Part shown: positions 11,565 through 17,198 of the stretch, piece by piece
Layout: every line of letters starts with the position of its first letter
How positions within the stretch are numbered: position 1 is the first letter of the stretch
Assembly (NCBI GenBank): GCA_028280225.1
Contig: JANQMF010000069.1
Span: 1-32,282 of the forward strand
DNA from: Pseudomonadales bacterium
GTDB taxonomy: Bacteria; Pseudomonadota; Gammaproteobacteria; Pseudomonadales; Azotimanducaceae
DNA: 32,282 bases
Direction of reading: 5' to 3'
The notes under the pieces: generated by a model
What the model saw: the letters and a program-made list of their open reading frames with translations, nothing else
The model's database searches: none
Told to the model about the DNA's origin: nothing
Program-made: the position numbers and the translations under genes

Positions 11565-11575
11565 ATCTCTCCACC

Positions 11576-11611
11576 ACCGGCAGGGGCGGTATTACCTTGC
11601 CCGCTGCCGGT
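11576..11611 (+). terminator. GC-rich hairpin after the Hsp20 gene
   Basis: ACCGGCAG (11576-11583) pairs with CTGCCGGT (11604-11611), and GGGC pairs with GCCC inside past a single bulged G. It lies 12 bp after the stop codon. No T tract follows, so it may be a processing or protective stem rather than an intrinsic terminator. Confidence 0.4.
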
Positions 11612-11867
11612 TCTCCATTAACATGCCGCTGCACAGGCCCGCATAAGTCGATTGTCTGGTGTGTCTGGTTTTCTCATGGGGTGGTTTGTGGAGGAGCTTG
11701 TCAAGCCAGTTCCGGCTTGACCCTTCTGTTTAATGTCACATATTGCGGACAATATAATTTGAATACTGGCGGCTTGTTGTGAATTTACGGTGTTTTGAAA
11801 TCACGACCACAAACAGGTCCTCTGAGAGTGTGTACTCTCAACGCTAATCCAAGCGTAACCTTGTACT
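11612..11867. other. Gene-free gap at the left edge of the accessory region
   Basis: No convincing reading frame is seen. Two hairpins stand out. GTCAAGCC-AGTTC-CGGCTTGAC lies at 11700-11721. TGAGAGT-GTGT-ACTCTCA lies at 11823-11840, just past the 3' end of the ribbon-helix-helix gene. A TATAAT hexamer at 11753-11758 has no good -35 element. Confidence 0.5.
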
Positions 11868-12128
11868 CTACTTCCGACGGTCCAAAAGATCGCGGTCAGT
11901 CACGTCCAATCCCTTGTCTCTGAGTGCCAGCAATATATAGCTGCGCATTGTCATATCGCATTCGTTTGCTTTTGTCGCCAGCTCCTTTCTTAGAGACTTG
12001 CGTAGGGTGAACGAAAACTGTTTGGTATCTTCTGTATCCTCAAATTCCTCATCTATCGTTTGATGTGGATTCAGCGAACTCGAAAGTGCGCGGTACAAGT
12101 CAGACGAACGTCCTGTTTGACCTGCCAT
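11868..12128 (-). CDS. Small ribbon-helix-helix-like DNA-binding protein
   Basis: The 86-residue product has an acidic, disordered N-terminal half (residues 25-36, DEEFEDTEDTK). A C-terminal half follows with the layout of a ribbon-helix-helix fold: strand KQFSFTLRKS, helix LRKELATKANECDM, turn, helix TMRSYILLALRDKGLDV. RHH proteins of this size are usually autorepressors of small operons or partition/antitoxin proteins. The start has AAGGA 7 bp upstream. Just upstream, at 12153-12174, is an inverted repeat fit to be its own operator. It is divergent from the winged-helix gene. No toxin partner is visible. Confidence 0.65.
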   Translation of the reverse strand: MAGQTGRSSDLYRALSSSLNPHQTIDEEFEDTEDTKQFSFTLRKSLRKELATKANECDMTMRSYILLALRDKGLDVTDRDLLDRRK

Positions 12129-12152
12129 CCGGTATTCCTTTTTCGAAATCCA

Positions 12153-12174
12153 ATTGTCTCATATTTAAGACAAT
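12153..12174. promoter_or_regulatory. Inverted repeat, candidate operator of the ribbon-helix-helix gene
   Basis: ATTGTCT (12153-12159) and AGACAAT (12168-12174) form perfect 7-bp arms with an 8-bp AT-rich spacer, 25-46 bp upstream of the start codon. The 7-8-7 layout is repeated, with other arm sequences, at 13050-13071. Confidence 0.5.
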
Positions 12175-12422
12175 GTTGTTCGTGCAAGGAATATAGCGCC
12201 TGAAATGAGATAACACAAGTGTTGTAATCTGCCTGCCGGAGGAGTCGCTGGGATGTTGCGCAATTGTAAAAATATTCCGATTGAATACTGAAACACGCTC
12301 AATTTGGTGTTTAATTGGTCCTATCATCCAACCCGGTGCGGTCTTTATGGGTGAAACCAGATAGAACACCGCTCCGCGACAGGGAGCAGAACATAGTCAA
12401 TAAGTAAGTAGGGCCGGAAGCA

Positions 12423-12854
12423 GTGGATACAGTCGAAGTCAAGGTGAATAAACCCGCCAAGATCAGAGATTACAAGCTAATGCTGAATACTCTGGCTGAA
12501 CAGACAAATCTTCAAGTTGATCACTTTGGCGGAAGCATGACAATGAACCAGTTGGCCGTGTTTTTTGCGGTGGCAAGCGCGCAGGCATGCGGGTCTTATA
12601 CGACAACAACCGACATTCGTATAAAGCTTGAAATGGACAGAAGAGCGGTATCCCGATATCTGACGGCCCTGAGTCAACACAAATACGGTAGCGCAAAAGG
12701 CTTGCAACTCATCGAGTTTGTGGAAAGTGTGACTGACAAGCGCGTAAAACACATTGCGTTAACACGCAAAGGTGAGGAACTTGCGCTCAGACTTGCACAT
12801 CACCTTCAAGAAATCGCCATCCGCCATATGGCTCAACAGGGTACAGGCGCTTAA
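12423..12854 (+). CDS. Winged-helix (MarR-like) transcriptional regulator
   Basis: The 143-residue product starts at GTG 12423 with GGAAG upstream. Its layout is that of a MarR-type winged helix: MNQLAVFFAVASAQACGSYTTTTDIRIKLEMDRRAVSRYLTALS contains the HTH (about residues 55-85), and LIEFVESVTDKRVKHIALTRKGEELA is the wing plus following helix. The phrase VxDKRxKxIxLTxKG is characteristic of the family's wing. The N-terminal 35 residues are charged. It is divergent from the ribbon-helix-helix gene and lies 316 bp upstream of the FleN-like operon, in the same direction, so it may regulate one or both. The effector is unknown. Confidence 0.75.
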   Translation: MDTVEVKVNKPAKIRDYKLMLNTLAEQTNLQVDHFGGSMTMNQLAVFFAVASAQACGSYTTTTDIRIKLEMDRRAVSRYLTALSQHKYGSAKGLQLIEFVESVTDKRVKHIALTRKGEELALRLAHHLQEIAIRHMAQQGTGA

Positions 12855-12857
12855 TCT

Positions 12858-12925
12858 GACCGTTTTTGTTATGGCGCTGGATGACTGTTATGTCCGGTCG
12901 TTATAACCTGGTATTATAAACGGTC
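12858..12925. repeat. Inverted repeat after the winged-helix gene
   Basis: GACCGTTT (12858-12865) and AAACGGTC (12918-12925) form perfect 8-bp arms around a 52-bp interior that contains the palindrome GTTATAAC. It lies between the winged-helix stop and the FleN-like operon and could be a paired regulator site. Confidence 0.45.
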
Positions 12926-12947
12926 AGGGCGATATATCTTCGGCTGG

Positions 12948-12965
12948 GTGGGCTAACGAGCCCAC
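12948..12965. terminator. Perfect 7-bp hairpin between the winged-helix gene and the operon
   Basis: GTGGGCT-AACG-AGCCCAC is a strong short stem-loop. No T tract follows, so intrinsic termination is doubtful. Confidence 0.3.
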
Positions 12966-13049
12966 GGTAGCGAATCGAGGACGCGTGACGGCCGCATATT
13001 TTCCCCGCAGCAACATCGGAGCTTCCCGGCGTGAACAGACTTCTAGTCT

Positions 13050-13071
13050 CATAGTTTTCTATCTAACTATG
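13050..13071. promoter_or_regulatory. Inverted repeat, candidate operator of the FleN-like operon
   Basis: CATAGTT (13050-13056) and AACTATG (13065-13071) are perfect 7-bp arms with an 8-bp AT-rich spacer, 100 bp upstream of the operon's first start codon. It has the same geometry as 12153-12174. Confidence 0.45.
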
Positions 13072-13139
13072 TTTTCATTTGCTTATGTTCTTAGCTTCAT
13101 ACGTATCTCTAGCGGGATCTCAGATCTTACTTAGACTTC

Positions 13140-13170
13140 ACTCCACAAGCAGAGCACGCGTGGAGTTTTT
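13140..13170 (+). promoter_or_regulatory. Stem-loop enclosing the ribosome-binding site of the FleN-like gene
   Basis: ACTCCAC (13140-13146) pairs perfectly with GTGGAGT (13160-13166), which contains the GGAG ribosome-binding site. TTTT and then the ATG at 13171 follow directly. The structure could hide the ribosome-binding site or, with its U tract, act as an attenuator. Confidence 0.5.
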
Positions 13171-13977
13171 ATGGAGAATCAATCAACACAACAACCGATG
13201 GTTGCGGTTGCAGTAGCCGGCGGCGGTGGCGGTGTCGGCCGAACCAGTATCGCGGTTGAGTTGGCGATTGCCTTTGGACGTATCCACGAATCAGTCTGGT
13301 TATTGGACGCAAGCCTGGGATTTGGCCAGGTTGACCTGGCATTGGGTATGCTCCCCACAAATGTTATTGAGGATGTCTGCAGCGGTAACGCATCGCTTGA
13401 CAAGGTGATGGTTCAGCATCCCACCGGCATCAAGGTGCTGCCCTCGTCCCGCACACCGTCCGAGCAACCCACGGTATATACTGTTGCGGCTATTGTCGAA
13501 AGTTTGCGGGAACTTGAGCAACCGCCCGAGGTGCTCGTGATCGATTGCCCGGCATGGTCAAATGAGGTTACAGCCCTGATGGAAAGCTGCGCGGATTTTG
13601 TTCTGCTGGTTGTCAGGGATGATCCGGTGTCTATACAAGACAATATTATTCAGGCGAAGCGCCTTCAGGTACAGTACGGCATTCGAAAATTTGGCGTGTT
13701 GATCAATCAATACACACGCAACGACAATGGCGCATCATTCTTCAATCTCTTCCGAAGCACGGCAGAACGCTTCGTCGACGCTGTATTTTTGCACTACGGC
13801 ACTATTACGGATGATCCCGCGTTCGCCAAGGCGCGTCGCAGTCAAAAGTCTCTGGCAGAGCGTTATCCGTTAAACCCCAACGCGCAAACCTTTAACAAAG
13901 TCGCGCGGCAAATTCTCATGTCTCCCTTCACTTCAACTGACGGCAGGCTTTCGTTCAGCAAAGTGTCCGGGCACTAA
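13171..13977 (+). CDS. FleN/FlhG-like MinD-family protein with degenerate ATPase motifs
   Basis: The 268-residue product follows the FleN/FlhG plan along most of its length: P-loop region (17-26), LLDASLGFGQVDLALGM (44-60), VLVIDCPAW (121-129), then VLLVVRDDPVSIQDN and KFGVLINQY. FleN/FlhG proteins set flagellar number and bind the flagellar regulators. Here the deviant Walker A is altered: the usual GGKGGVGKT reads GGGGGVGRT, so the signature lysine is Gly19 and the P-loop lysine is Arg24. The DAD element is DAS (Ser48), and the switch-II TAAG is CPAW. The N-terminal DQAxxLR helix that activates FlhF is absent, and no flhF is present. It is probably a nucleotide-binding-impaired or pseudo-ATPase. 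It starts a three-gene operon; the sigma gene begins 1 bp after its stop. Confidence 0.85.
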   Translation: MENQSTQQPMVAVAVAGGGGGVGRTSIAVELAIAFGRIHESVWLLDASLGFGQVDLALGMLPTNVIEDVCSGNASLDKVMVQHPTGIKVLPSSRTPSEQPTVYTVAAIVESLRELEQPPEVLVIDCPAWSNEVTALMESCADFVLLVVRDDPVSIQDNIIQAKRLQVQYGIRKFGVLINQYTRNDNGASFFNLFRSTAERFVDAVFLHYGTITDDPAFAKARRSQKSLAERYPLNPNAQTFNKVARQILMSPFTSTDGRLSFSKVSGH

Positions 13978-13978
13978 C

Positions 13979-14662
13979 ATGACCCACAACAAAAATAGCA
14001 AGCAGGTCGAACAACTCGTGCAAGAACATCTTGAAGCAGTTGCTTTGATCGCACGCGCGGTGATCTACCAATGTCCACCAGTAGTCAATCGGGATGACTT
14101 GTTCCAATCCGGGTGTCTGGGTCTTGTTCAAGCTGCACGTCGCTACAAGGCAGACAGCAACGTACCGTTTCTGGCGTATGCAAGAAAACGCATCCGGGGT
14201 GCGATGTATGATGAGATTCGCCTGGCAACACCGCTGAGCCGGCGGGATTGGCAGCGGGTACAGGATACGGCTCGGGTTCAGGAGTACTTGCAGGGTAAGT
14301 CCGAGCACCAGGTACGCGCGGCCATGGTTGCCGAATTTATGGGGTCTGGTTTGGACCAGTACCTCAGCTTTGAAGCCATGGCACAGCGGGCAAGACAGCC
14401 GGAACCGTTCGAGGAAACCAATGCGCCGCCGGCGCTCACACCAACCCCGGACTCTGCTTACGACAAAGAAGAAACCCTTAAAAGGCTCCGGCTCGCGGTG
14501 CGTGGATTAACCACGCTCGAGCACGATGTACTCATACTCCACGATTATCGCGAATTGCCTCTAAAAAAAATTGGTTTGATGAAGGGGCTGTCCGAATCAC
14601 GTATCAGCCAAATACGCAGCCGGGCCATTGCCCGGTTGAAAGAGGGGTTTCTTGAAAACTGA
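13979..14662 (+). CDS. FliA-like (sigma-28 group) RNA polymerase sigma factor
   Basis: The 227-residue product matches FliA in length and order. Region 2 (about 39-81) reads DDLFQSGCLGLVQAARRY and RIRGAMYDEIR, the latter nearly the FliA signature. A region-3 segment follows (90-120), then an acidic/proline linker (about 137-160) and region 4 (176-220), with a helix-turn-helix in LPLKKIGLMKGLSESRISQI. FliA sigma factors transcribe late flagellar and motility genes. No flagellar gene, and no anti-sigma FlgM, is present here. Translation probably couples to the upstream gene (1-bp gap, weak ribosome-binding site). Its 3' end overlaps the DUF1631 gene by 11 bp if that gene starts at TTG 14652. 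Confidence 0.9.
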   Translation: MTHNKNSKQVEQLVQEHLEAVALIARAVIYQCPPVVNRDDLFQSGCLGLVQAARRYKADSNVPFLAYARKRIRGAMYDEIRLATPLSRRDWQRVQDTARVQEYLQGKSEHQVRAAMVAEFMGSGLDQYLSFEAMAQRARQPEPFEETNAPPALTPTPDSAYDKEETLKRLRLAVRGLTTLEHDVLILHDYRELPLKKIGLMKGLSESRISQIRSRAIARLKEGFLEN

Positions 14663-16583
14663 GGTTACTAAGTCCATGGAAAAACAGAGTCAACTGGTAT
14701 CAACCCGAAAATCTCTACATAAAGTCCTGCTTGCGGCAATGCACAAGTTGTGTGATGACATTTGGCAGTCCTTACCGGAAGTTATATTTACCAAGTCAGC
14801 AAACACAGATTCGGACATAGCACGGGCTGACTACCTGGAGTACATCCCTCATGTCCGATCTAATCGGTCGCAAATCAAAACGGCAATCGCGGAGGGGGTT
14901 CAGGCTGCATTTGATGCGGACAATACGCGGAAGGCGGATTCCGCATCCAGCTCGATGTTGCAGATCCTTGCGGAAGATGAAGAAATCGAAACCTCTATTC
15001 TCGTGACCAGTCTTGTTACAAGACTACAACTTGATCATACAACCGTGCTTGAAGCCATCAAAAGGTCCATCACCAGCCGGATGCCCGGATCGGCTAATCC
15101 GGTTGATCCTCACCGCATGATCAGCGTCTTTGTGCGGGCGATAGGACAAGAACCGCCGCGCCTGCAGGCGGTGATTGTGGAGGAGCTAAGCAGGGTTGCC
15201 CCCAAGGTATTTGCACAACTTCTGAGCAAAGTCACTGCAGTCCTTCAAATTGAGGGGTCGGGTTCGCGGCGCAACACCGCAACGGTTGAGCCGCATGGAA
15301 GCCGGCGTGGTGGTCGTGGTAGTGATGAATCGCCAACGATTCCTGAGGTGGCCGTACAACAGCTTGTGCAGTTGCAGCAGTTGGTTCCCAGCCCACCCGT
15401 TTCAGATAATCCGCTACATTGGAGCAATTGGGTGCACAGCCGTCACGAACAACTGGCAAATGTTACCCGTAACCTCAGCCCGGCGGGGCAACAAGCTTTT
15501 GAAGTGGCGGCTCAGGTGATCAATTCTGTGCTGACAGACTCAGACCTGTCCGTACCCGCCAGGCTGTTGATCGCGCGCCTGCAAGTCCCCGTAATCAAGT
15601 TGGCGATTGTGGACCCGGGTTTCTTGGAAAACGACCAGCACCCGGCCCGCTTATTCATGAACCTGCTGGCCGGGTGTGGGGTTGGCTGGGACGACGACCT
15701 GGAACGCACCGCAACCGACCGCTTGTACAAGAATTGCGAAAATGTTGTTAATTGGCTGGTAGAGACCTTTACAACGGACATTGACGTTTTTATTACGGCG
15801 GCGGAGAAGCTGCGCGCCATTCTTGCCTTGGCCAAAAAGCGGCAACAACTCATCGACCAACGTCTGGTCGAAGCAACAACGGGCAACGAGAAATTGACCG
15901 TGGCAAAAGAACATATTGACGGCATCATCAAACGGGTGACAAAAAACATTGACCTGTCGGCTGATCTTAAAGCGTTTGTTGACCACACTTTACATCGGGC
16001 ACTTGTCTTCGTGTACGTCCGCCACGGTGCCGTCAGCCAGGAATGGGAACAAGCCGCGGGAACTCTAAACAAGTTGGTACACCTGGAAGCATCCACGACG
16101 ATAGCACCGGTTGAGGCTGATGCGTTGCTCGAGTCCCTGCGTTACTGGTGCAAATTCGCCGGACTTCAAGACCTGGACGTCCAACAACAGCTCAACAACA
16201 CCCGCACTTATTTTGAGAACAGATGTAAGCATCAGAAAAAGGGTATTGGATACGAACTGCAAGAAGTCCCCGTGGAGAATCCCATTGAGCTTGAAGGTGT
16301 ACCGCAGGTGGAGCCCTTCCGCGCAGCGGAAGAGTTTATAGACTACCTGGACGTTGGCGACCTAGTTACCCTGACGACCAACCAGCAGGCCACCGAAGCT
16401 GTGCTGACAAAGATAAATGCGGACAAATTCACCTTTGCGTGCAAAAACGAAAAAGTGGAAATTCAACTGACCCGTGCAGAGATCGTAAAAATGTTTCGCC
16501 TTAACCGGATCTACTATACCGATGCAAACCTAACCATCTCCTCCCGCCTGGACCAATTGATCGGACACCTGATCCAACCCTAG
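14652..16583 (+). CDS. DUF1631 family protein
   Basis: The 643-residue product is recognised by its central block at about 299-346, LSVPARLLIARLQVPVIKL and then FLENDQHPARLFMNLL and GVGW, the core of DUF1631. Family members are often mislabelled thymidine phosphorylase, and their function is unknown. The N-terminal 200 residues are helical and less conserved. Residues about 203-225 form a basic Arg/Gly-rich linker. A C-terminal beta-rich segment (about 565-625, starting DVGDLVTLTT) resembles the PilZ-like end of the family but lacks the RxxxR and D/NxSxxG c-di-GMP motifs. The start is uncertain: TTG 14652 (AGAGGGG upstream, overlapping the sigma gene) or ATG 14676. It ends the operon and is followed by tandem repeats. 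Confidence 0.83.
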   Translation: MKTEVTKSMEKQSQLVSTRKSLHKVLLAAMHKLCDDIWQSLPEVIFTKSANTDSDIARADYLEYIPHVRSNRSQIKTAIAEGVQAAFDADNTRKADSASSSMLQILAEDEEIETSILVTSLVTRLQLDHTTVLEAIKRSITSRMPGSANPVDPHRMISVFVRAIGQEPPRLQAVIVEELSRVAPKVFAQLLSKVTAVLQIEGSGSRRNTATVEPHGSRRGGRGSDESPTIPEVAVQQLVQLQQLVPSPPVSDNPLHWSNWVHSRHEQLANVTRNLSPAGQQAFEVAAQVINSVLTDSDLSVPARLLIARLQVPVIKLAIVDPGFLENDQHPARLFMNLLAGCGVGWDDDLERTATDRLYKNCENVVNWLVETFTTDIDVFITAAEKLRAILALAKKRQQLIDQRLVEATTGNEKLTVAKEHIDGIIKRVTKNIDLSADLKAFVDHTLHRALVFVYVRHGAVSQEWEQAAGTLNKLVHLEASTTIAPVEADALLESLRYWCKFAGLQDLDVQQQLNNTRTYFENRCKHQKKGIGYELQEVPVENPIELEGVPQVEPFRAAEEFIDYLDVGDLVTLTTNQQATEAVLTKINADKFTFACKNEKVEIQLTRAEIVKMFRLNRIYYTDANLTISSRLDQLIGHLIQP

Positions 16584-16612
16584 TCACCCCGCAACCCTCA
16601 ACCACCTCCACA

Positions 16613-16942
16613 CCCAGCAAATGGTCACCGAACCTCAAATCAGTCCCCAATCACCTCACCACCCAGTGAATGGTTAAATACCCGAGCCTAAATTCAGCCC
16701 CCGATCACCCCACCACCCAGCAGGTGGTTAAACACCGAACCTCAAATCAGCCCCCGATCACCCTACCATCCAGCAAATGTTCAAATACCCGAGCCCAAAC
16801 TCAGCCCCCGGTCACCCCACCACCCAGCAAATGGTCAAATATCCGAGCCTAAATTCAGCCCTCGATCACCCCACCACCCAGCAGGTGGTTAAACACCGAA
16901 CCTCAAATCAGCCCCCGATCACCCTAACCCCCAGGCAAGTGG
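16613..16942. repeat. Tandem array of six 49-54 bp units plus a partial seventh
   Basis: Units begin at 16613, 16662, 16716, 16769, 16823 and 16877, with a broken unit at 16930. Two sub-types occur in the order B-A-B-A-A-B. Type A carries ATACCCGAGCCTAAATTCAG and type B carries ACACCGAACCTCAAATCAG. All share a CCCAGCA..TGGT start and a CCCCGATCACCC end. The array is C-rich on the plus strand and has no spacers. Unit lengths are not consistently multiples of three, so it is not a coding repeat. It lies immediately past the DUF1631 stop. Confidence 0.9.
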
Positions 16943-17004
16943 CGCGCGTGAACCCTCCCCAAAAAAGGAAATGGGGACAATCTCTCAGCAGGCAAAGGCG
17001 GTGT

Positions 17005-17099
17005 TCAGGGTAAGCTGTTTTCAAACCGTCGGCGACAGGACGTCGCCGCCGGAGCGTACAGGGATGTATTCACAGCGATTTGAAAACAGCTTACCCTGA
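17005..17099. repeat. 95-bp palindromic intergenic element with 21-bp perfect arms
   Basis: TCAGGGTAAGCTGTTTTCAAA (17005-17025) is the exact reverse complement of 17079-17099. Nested inside is a second hairpin, CGGCGAC-AGGAC-GTCGCCG (17030-17048). The layout (long perfect arms, nested GC-rich hairpin, intergenic place) is that of REP/MITE-like elements. No second copy was seen in the window and no transposase is near. Confidence 0.85.
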
Positions 17100-17198
17100 T
17101 CACAGCCACTCTCTACCAGAGCCAGAGCCATCACCCATCACCCATCACCAACCCCCAACCCCAAGCCATTCCTCCCCATTTCCCCTAAACTACCCCTC
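17100..17198. other. Low-complexity spacer before the K+ channel gene
   Basis: It is C/A-rich with a CATCACC microsatellite (CATCACCCATCACCCATCACC, near 17130-17150) and CCCCAACC runs. No clear promoter or ribosome-binding site was seen before the ATG at 17199. Confidence 0.5.

Follow-up and report, generated by a model that had tools for sequence, protein, structure and literature searches.

Gene layout and recurrence of the locus

The DNA analysed here is an entire contig of 32,282 bases (C186, JANQMF010000069.1 of GenBank assembly GCA_028280225.1; hereafter the window) from a Pseudomonadales bacterium of the family Azotimanducaceae, whose genome comprises 4.44 Mb in 242 contigs and is 96.7% complete. 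At positions 11868–16583 it encodes a FleN-like protein, a FliA-type sigma factor and a DUF1631 protein together with a ribbon-helix-helix (RHH) protein; the versions of the first three found in this cassette are marked with an asterisk (FleN*, sigma*, DUF1631*). The RHH gene (11868..12128, minus strand, 86 amino acids) is divergent from the other three, and its product consists of an acidic N-terminal tail and an Arc/ParG-like core. On the plus strand lie the genes for FleN* (13171..13977), a FleN/FlhG-like probable pseudo-ATPase in which GGGGGVGRT replaces GGKGGVGKT and S48 replaces D48, for sigma* of the FliA/WhiG type (13979..14662) and for DUF1631* (14652..16583, 643 amino acids). An initial annotation, made from the letters alone, had described these three genes as a tight operon, and both the positions of the reading frames, all of which are open, and the protein families were confirmed. 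The 1-bp gap between FleN* and sigma* was also correct, whereas the reported 11-bp overlap of sigma* with DUF1631* requires the TTG start at 14652 and becomes a gap if the alternative in-frame ATG at 14676 is used.

Two small regulators had been assigned to the same module, and both are present. The second, a winged-helix protein (12423..12854, plus strand), matched phrog_9665 (E = 4.9e-14), was 33% identical to a Roseobacter phage protein across 57% of its length and gave two weak CARF matches in PADLOC, but it does not belong to the conserved unit, having no match at the related locus described below. The absence of flagellar genes nearby was likewise upheld: a Pfam scan of 14 flanking window proteins recovered none, the remaining open reading frames having been assessed by reading.

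The same arrangement recurs in another genome of the genus (G008, locus L049) in the order RHH (minus strand), FleN*, sigma*, DUF1631*. None of the adjoining genes there was recognised as flagellar, as was anticipated for a trio existing apart from flagellar clusters. The conserved unit is one of four genes: the divergent RHH gene and those of FleN*, sigma* and DUF1631*. Between the two copies, identity falls from 54% for the RHH protein, encoded at the same place in both, to 35% for FleN*, 33% for sigma* and 26% for DUF1631*, while the flagellar flhB, flhA, fleN, fliA and motA-type genes of the same two genomes are 73–84% identical, fliR 69% and flhF 34%. Either the cassette has evolved very fast or its two copies came from different sources. 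As a separate observation, flhF (L047:5079-6197) stands out within the flagellar cluster itself, its neighbours being 69–84% identical between the two genomes.

Within the genus, a set of 40 genomes that includes the own one contained FleN* twice, with 521 and 509 bits and at most 189 bits elsewhere, and a search of 206 genomes of the family returned the same two (next match 190 bits). In 390 genomes of the order, drawn without G008, an RHH profile found the own genome only. When 369 genomes of the class were scanned for the motif pattern GGGGVGR/ST, 7 had it, including the own genome; the six other loci encode no cassette relatives, and no further FleN* was found in this set. Plasmid searches with tblastn gave, always below 60% identity, 3 records for FleN* (one annotated as fleN, two as P-loop NTPase), 40 for sigma* (among the 15 listed, most were FliA or FliA/WhiG, one was sigma-70 family and some were unannotated), 2 for DUF1631* and none for the RHH protein. 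The phage search, which did not include FleN* and DUF1631* as queries, yielded 3 weak records for sigma*, one for the winged helix and none for the RHH protein. A plasmid or phage origin was rejected, since none of these matches shows a cassette. One plasmid of Aquicella lusitana (NZ_LR699116.1, 72396-89067; L185) carries FleN-like and FliA-like genes within an ordinary flagellar cluster. IMG/VR scans with queries A5, A6 and A1 found no relative, nor did GTDB scans with FleN* and A5, which used exact back-translated stretches and may omit the own genome and its near kin. A defence system was also dismissed, PADLOC being empty for FleN*, sigma* and DUF1631* of both copies and for the RHH protein, apart from the two weak matches of the winged helix. 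Literature searches on DUF1631, PacR and a FleN-FlhG paralog with a sigma factor found no such cassette described.

Divergence from the host's flagellar regulators

A normal flagellar set is present elsewhere in the own genome. Contig C226 carries a fliR-flhB-flhA-flhF-fleN-fliA-motA-type cluster in the ordinary gene order, its flhF being named by position and a weak SRP54 match, and the only FlhA of the genome adjoins the ordinary FleN and FliA there. Each of the latter two is 31% identical to its cassette counterpart, and the scores were 257 bits for the own FliA and 134 bits for sigma*. The trio is a second, divergent set beside the host's ordinary flagellar regulators; the possibility that it represents the host's only FleN and FliA, on which the initial proposal would have foundered, is ruled out by the copies on C226.

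FleN* has the MinD/ParA fold, with P. aeruginosa FleN as its best match among solved structures (5j1j, E = 4e-36, residues 3–255), and its sequence places it in the FleN/FlhG family. The Walker A motif and the catalytic Asp48 of these ATPases are missing, and in neither copy is the gene beside flhF in a flagellar cluster. The substitutions relative to the P. aeruginosa protein are K19G, K24R (K24 being the P-loop lysine) and D48S, with V at this place in G008; position 48 was set by alignment to the D48A chain 8pb9. The Walker A motif reads GGGGGVGRT in both copies, compared to GKGGVGK[TS] in ordinary proteins. The ordinary form was present in 54 of 58 control loci, some genes being counted twice, and the exceptions were the two cassette copies and L039 and L041, where the motif was not found. 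In a second control set it was present in 20 of 22 (one had GKGGAGKT, and in one the motif was not found). According to a study in P. aeruginosa (PMC10723142), FleN K19A dimerises inefficiently and retains about 16% of its ATPase activity with FleQ binding in cells kept, and the D48A form binds ATP without hydrolysing it. With three key ATPase residues lost, FleN* is probably a pseudo-ATPase in both copies. The initial assignment to the FleN type stands as far as similarity is concerned, but an ordinary FleN it is not, because the catalytic residues are gone.

The alteration extends beyond the active site. Among 49 columns conserved to at least 90% in 44 ordinary FleN proteins, 21 are altered in both FleN*, and 9 of these 21 changed identically, K19G and K24R included (shuffled mean 1.4; none of 2000 shuffles was as high). 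In the FleN tree, the two FleN* join with a support of 98 (quick method) on long branches, about which the tool warns. Taken together, the sequences support a common origin of the two FleN*.

Sigma* keeps most FliA-conserved positions. FliA/WhiG is its best family (TIGR02479, E = 2.6e-39), although the score of 135.3 bits is under the curated cut-off of 189.6. Sigma-70 regions 2 and 4 were matched by Pfam, which assigns the protein to this group; region 3 was not found in the window copy and was weak in that of G008 (E = 6.5e-4), compared to 9e-10 in the own FliA. Both copies keep 35 of 58 FliA-conserved columns (at least 90%). The RIRGAMxDExR and SESRxSQ motifs are retained, and the DWxPRSV stretch after region 2.4 is lost. 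In a tree that also includes four further sigma factors from the own genome, three of them entered twice, sigma* falls on the FliA side with a support of 100, and the two copies join at 97, again with a warning of long branches. Sigma* stands apart from the ordinary FliA proteins of close relatives, and the tight grouping that would have refuted the initial proposal was not observed.

Long branches and a missing or weak region 3 are also what might be expected from the relic of a second flagellar system, in which fleN and fliA outlived the structural genes and are now drifting. We regard this as very unlikely, because all frames are open, DUF1631* has its 643 amino acids, the four-gene order is kept in the distant copy and FleN* has the 9 shared derived residues, while neither an RHH gene nor a DUF1631 gene fits into a flagellar cluster of the kind seen here.

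The RHH protein, its candidate operator and the genomic setting

The RHH protein gave a weak match to the Arc-like phage family phrog_582 (E = 4e-5), none in Pfam and only a chance-level one in the PDB. Besides one match each in the own genome and G008, its profile found matches in another 12 genomes of the family with E-values no higher than 3e-12, together with weaker extra ones, five at E = 0.01–0.06 and one at 0.009. At 11 of the 12 loci (L111–L122), the RHH gene adjoins a ParA-type ATPase with the motif KGGAGKTT, and all four of the ATPases scanned match Pfam VirC1; at the remaining locus (L112), no ParA-type gene was seen, the contig end being about 0.5 kb away. The RHH protein is 40–52% identical over 54–84 amino acids to the ParA-linked proteins of the seven loci with a BLAST match, and the cores are alike in both groups, including the C-terminal DRRK/R motif (GLxVTxxDLxDRRK-type). 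The RHH-like protein of the initial annotation is thereby confirmed as a divergent RHH gene product, although of a family that otherwise adjoins ParA-type ATPases.

The tails differ. Their net charge is -5 in the window and -2 in G008 compared to +3 to +14 in the seven ParA-linked proteins measured, two of which are near-copies. Since basic tails stimulate ParA-type ATPases, their loss is in line with a partner that has given up ATP hydrolysis. The family relationship would suit a ParA-RHH-type positioning or partition system with the FleN-like protein in place of ParA. Nevertheless, this is the least probable of the explanations considered: the cassette does not form a ParA-RHH (VirC1/VirC2-like) pair, as the only such protein near the RHH gene is FleN*, without both Walker A lysines and the other ATPase residue, the tail charge is of the opposite sign, and it is not evident what a sigma factor would do in a system of this kind.

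One 24-base palindromic match, with 17 of 24 positions identical, is common to the intervals separating the RHH gene from the gene next to it (window, TGTCTCATATTTAAGACA; G008, TGTCTCACTTATAGGACA). In the window it contains the palindrome ATTGTCT-N8-AGACAAT (12153..12174), a predicted binding site and probable operator of the RHH protein. The consensus, built from the window and G008 sites and so not independent of them, occurred with up to 2 mismatches once in the own genome (12153-12174 only), at 3 places in G008, once in G019 and not at all in G030, and the reversed control gave one match across the four genomes. One of the G008 matches (C21:67029, L126:7025-8823) lies in a low-GC region before DUF6316 and trypsin-like genes.

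Comparison with relatives delimits an insert of 5,634 bp (11565..17198) between hsp20 and an ion-channel gene, which are 62–86 bp apart in G008, G009, G010 and G019; the G031 contig breaks off within the channel gene. Besides the cassette, the insert contains an array in which a 54-bp unit is repeated in tandem about 5.6 times (16626..16942, plus strand), directly 3' of DUF1631* and the operon, and an inverted-repeat element with outer arms of about 20 bp (17007..17098, plus strand). The stretch 17000-17105 folds into a strong hairpin (-58 kcal/mol, z = -9.8), and a search of 184 loci for the arm of the repeat matched two, both of which overlap that very place.

In G008 the cassette occupies 18.7–22.7 kb of contig C21. 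The first 97 kb or so of this contig have a GC of about 0.50, the sequence beyond 100 kb one of 0.60–0.63. Two pieces of the first 40 kb correlate with host-like sequence in oligonucleotide make-up at 0.61–0.76, host-like pieces among themselves at 0.93–0.97. G008 is listed as 4% contaminated, yet a single contig runs from the low-GC stretch into host-like sequence. The region (L123–L127, C21 1-97000) encodes a tyrosine integrase, TIR, RHS, CHAT and several trypsin-like proteins, as well as two TrwB/TraD-like (coupling-type) ATPases, one of them a weak match; its left border was not seen. Two findings support an accessory context, as initially suspected: the hsp20-channel site of four relatives is without the cassette, and the G008 copy lies in a low-GC region. 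The cassette is placed at different sites in the two genomes.

The integrase, the two coupling-type ATPases and the second palindrome match of this region, before DUF6316 and a trypsin-like gene, would be in line with a regulator of a mobile element (integrative and conjugative or prophage-like) controlling its own transfer genes, like SetCD in SXT. We consider this unlikely, since the window insert has no recognisable transfer or integration gene, the G008 region is a mixture of accessory genes whose left end is out of sight, the IMG/VR scans found no relative, and the plasmid and phage matches show no cassette.

Possible mode of action and relation to known systems

The third member of the operon, DUF1631*, is a clear representative of PF07793 (E = 1.3e-59, 202.9 bits against a Pfam cut-off of 33.7) with no relative in the PDB. 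DUF1631 matches occur on three further contigs of the own genome. The same genome encodes a PilZ-DUF1631-GGDEF-EAL protein of 1346 amino acids (L051:1178-5218), and a PilZ gene lies 129 bp ahead of another DUF1631 gene. In G008, MreB-family, GGDEF-EAL and DUF3391-HD (HD_5) genes adjoin the cassette (L049:3012-6710). Such proximity of DUF1631 to cyclic-di-GMP domains is an association and no proof of a link.

What can be read directly from the genomes is a four-gene unit, its recurrence at different sites, its separateness from the host flagellar cluster, the loss of catalytic residues in FleN* and the retention of most FliA-conserved positions in sigma*. The explanation we favor, with slightly better than even confidence, is an accessory, horizontally spread regulatory cassette, which combines a strongly altered fleN-fliA pair with a DUF1631 gene and an RHH gene and so has its own sigma factor. 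Quite probably, the RHH protein is an autorepressor that binds the palindrome next to its gene, and it may repress the operon as well. Once repression is relieved, sigma*, which is likely to be an active sigma factor, would direct RNA polymerase to those promoters that a FliA-like recognition surface can read; that it has a separate regulon is an inference. FleN* would neither dimerise nor cycle on ATP and would act as a fixed binding partner rather than a switch, and it is conceivable that its partner is one of the FleQ-like activators, sigma* or DUF1631*. Tentatively, DUF1631* may serve as the signal input linking the unit to cyclic-di-GMP signalling. A putative takeover of the host flagellar-biofilm switch, in which an ATP-dead, non-dimerising FleN holds the host FleQ-type activator in one state, the FliA-like sigma redirects RNA polymerase and DUF1631 is the cyclic-di-GMP input, is a speculative and rather doubtful extension.

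Several observations weigh against a horizontally spread, active cassette. The two copies, the only ones known, have diverged widely from each other. GC at third codon positions is equally low in the own fleN (0.55), the own fliA (0.58) and the three operon genes (0.575–0.581). The window copy has no integrase and its oligonucleotide make-up is host-like, so recent transfer is not demonstrated for it, and in G030, whose FleN is sister to the own one in the tree, the contig stops 278 bp short of the channel gene with no hsp20 gene in that stretch. The shared palindrome is weak by match length, 3 of 30 shuffles reaching 17. Among doubly changed sigma* columns, 1 of 14 is identical, which is chance level (shuffled mean 0.66; reached by 1022 of 2000 shuffles), and the joining of the two sigma* in the tree may be long-branch attraction; their common origin rests on gene order. 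A consensus search found no sigma-28-type promoter in the cassette, and the two 3-mismatch sites in the window lie outside it, as many being reached in 12 of 100 shuffles. Another scan gave 1 site in the window (shuffles 0, 0, 0), 1 in the G008 region (shuffles 2, 3, 1) and 1 in the rest of that contig (shuffles 0, 3, 1), and no target gene of the cassette was found.

If the proposal holds, the cassette may let acquired DNA steer host gene expression. A natural FleN without the residues removed in laboratory mutants would test the need for ATP cycling in all FleN roles, and a sigma-28-type factor on accessory DNA outside a flagellar cluster would show acquired DNA bringing a promoter-selecting subunit. 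DUF1631, listed in Pfam as of unknown function, gains a defined genetic context.

Compared with ATPase-RHH pairs of the VirC1-VirC2 or ParF-ParG type, the cassette has in common the RHH core with its C-terminal motif but differs in the acidic tail and in having no ParA-type partner. With the FliA/WhiG sigma-28 family, sigma* shares regions 2 and 4 and the two retained motifs, whereas it scores below the TIGR02479 cut-off and is without DWxPRSV. FleN* is similar over residues 3–255 to P. aeruginosa FleN, a FleN/FlhG antiactivator of the MinD/ParA family, from which it differs by K19G, K24R, D48S (V in G008) and 21 of 49 highly conserved columns. SetCD of SXT elements also are flagellar-type regulators on accessory DNA, but they resemble FlhDC and not FleN and FliA. 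A close arrangement is the flhA-flhF-fleN-fliA operon described for Pseudomonas in PMC6424431, where fleN-like and fliA-like genes are adjacent in a tight operon as in the cassette. In contrast to that operon, the cassette is without flhA, flhF and other flagellar genes, its FleN has lost the catalytic residues, DUF1631 and RHH genes are added, and the host keeps a separate normal copy.

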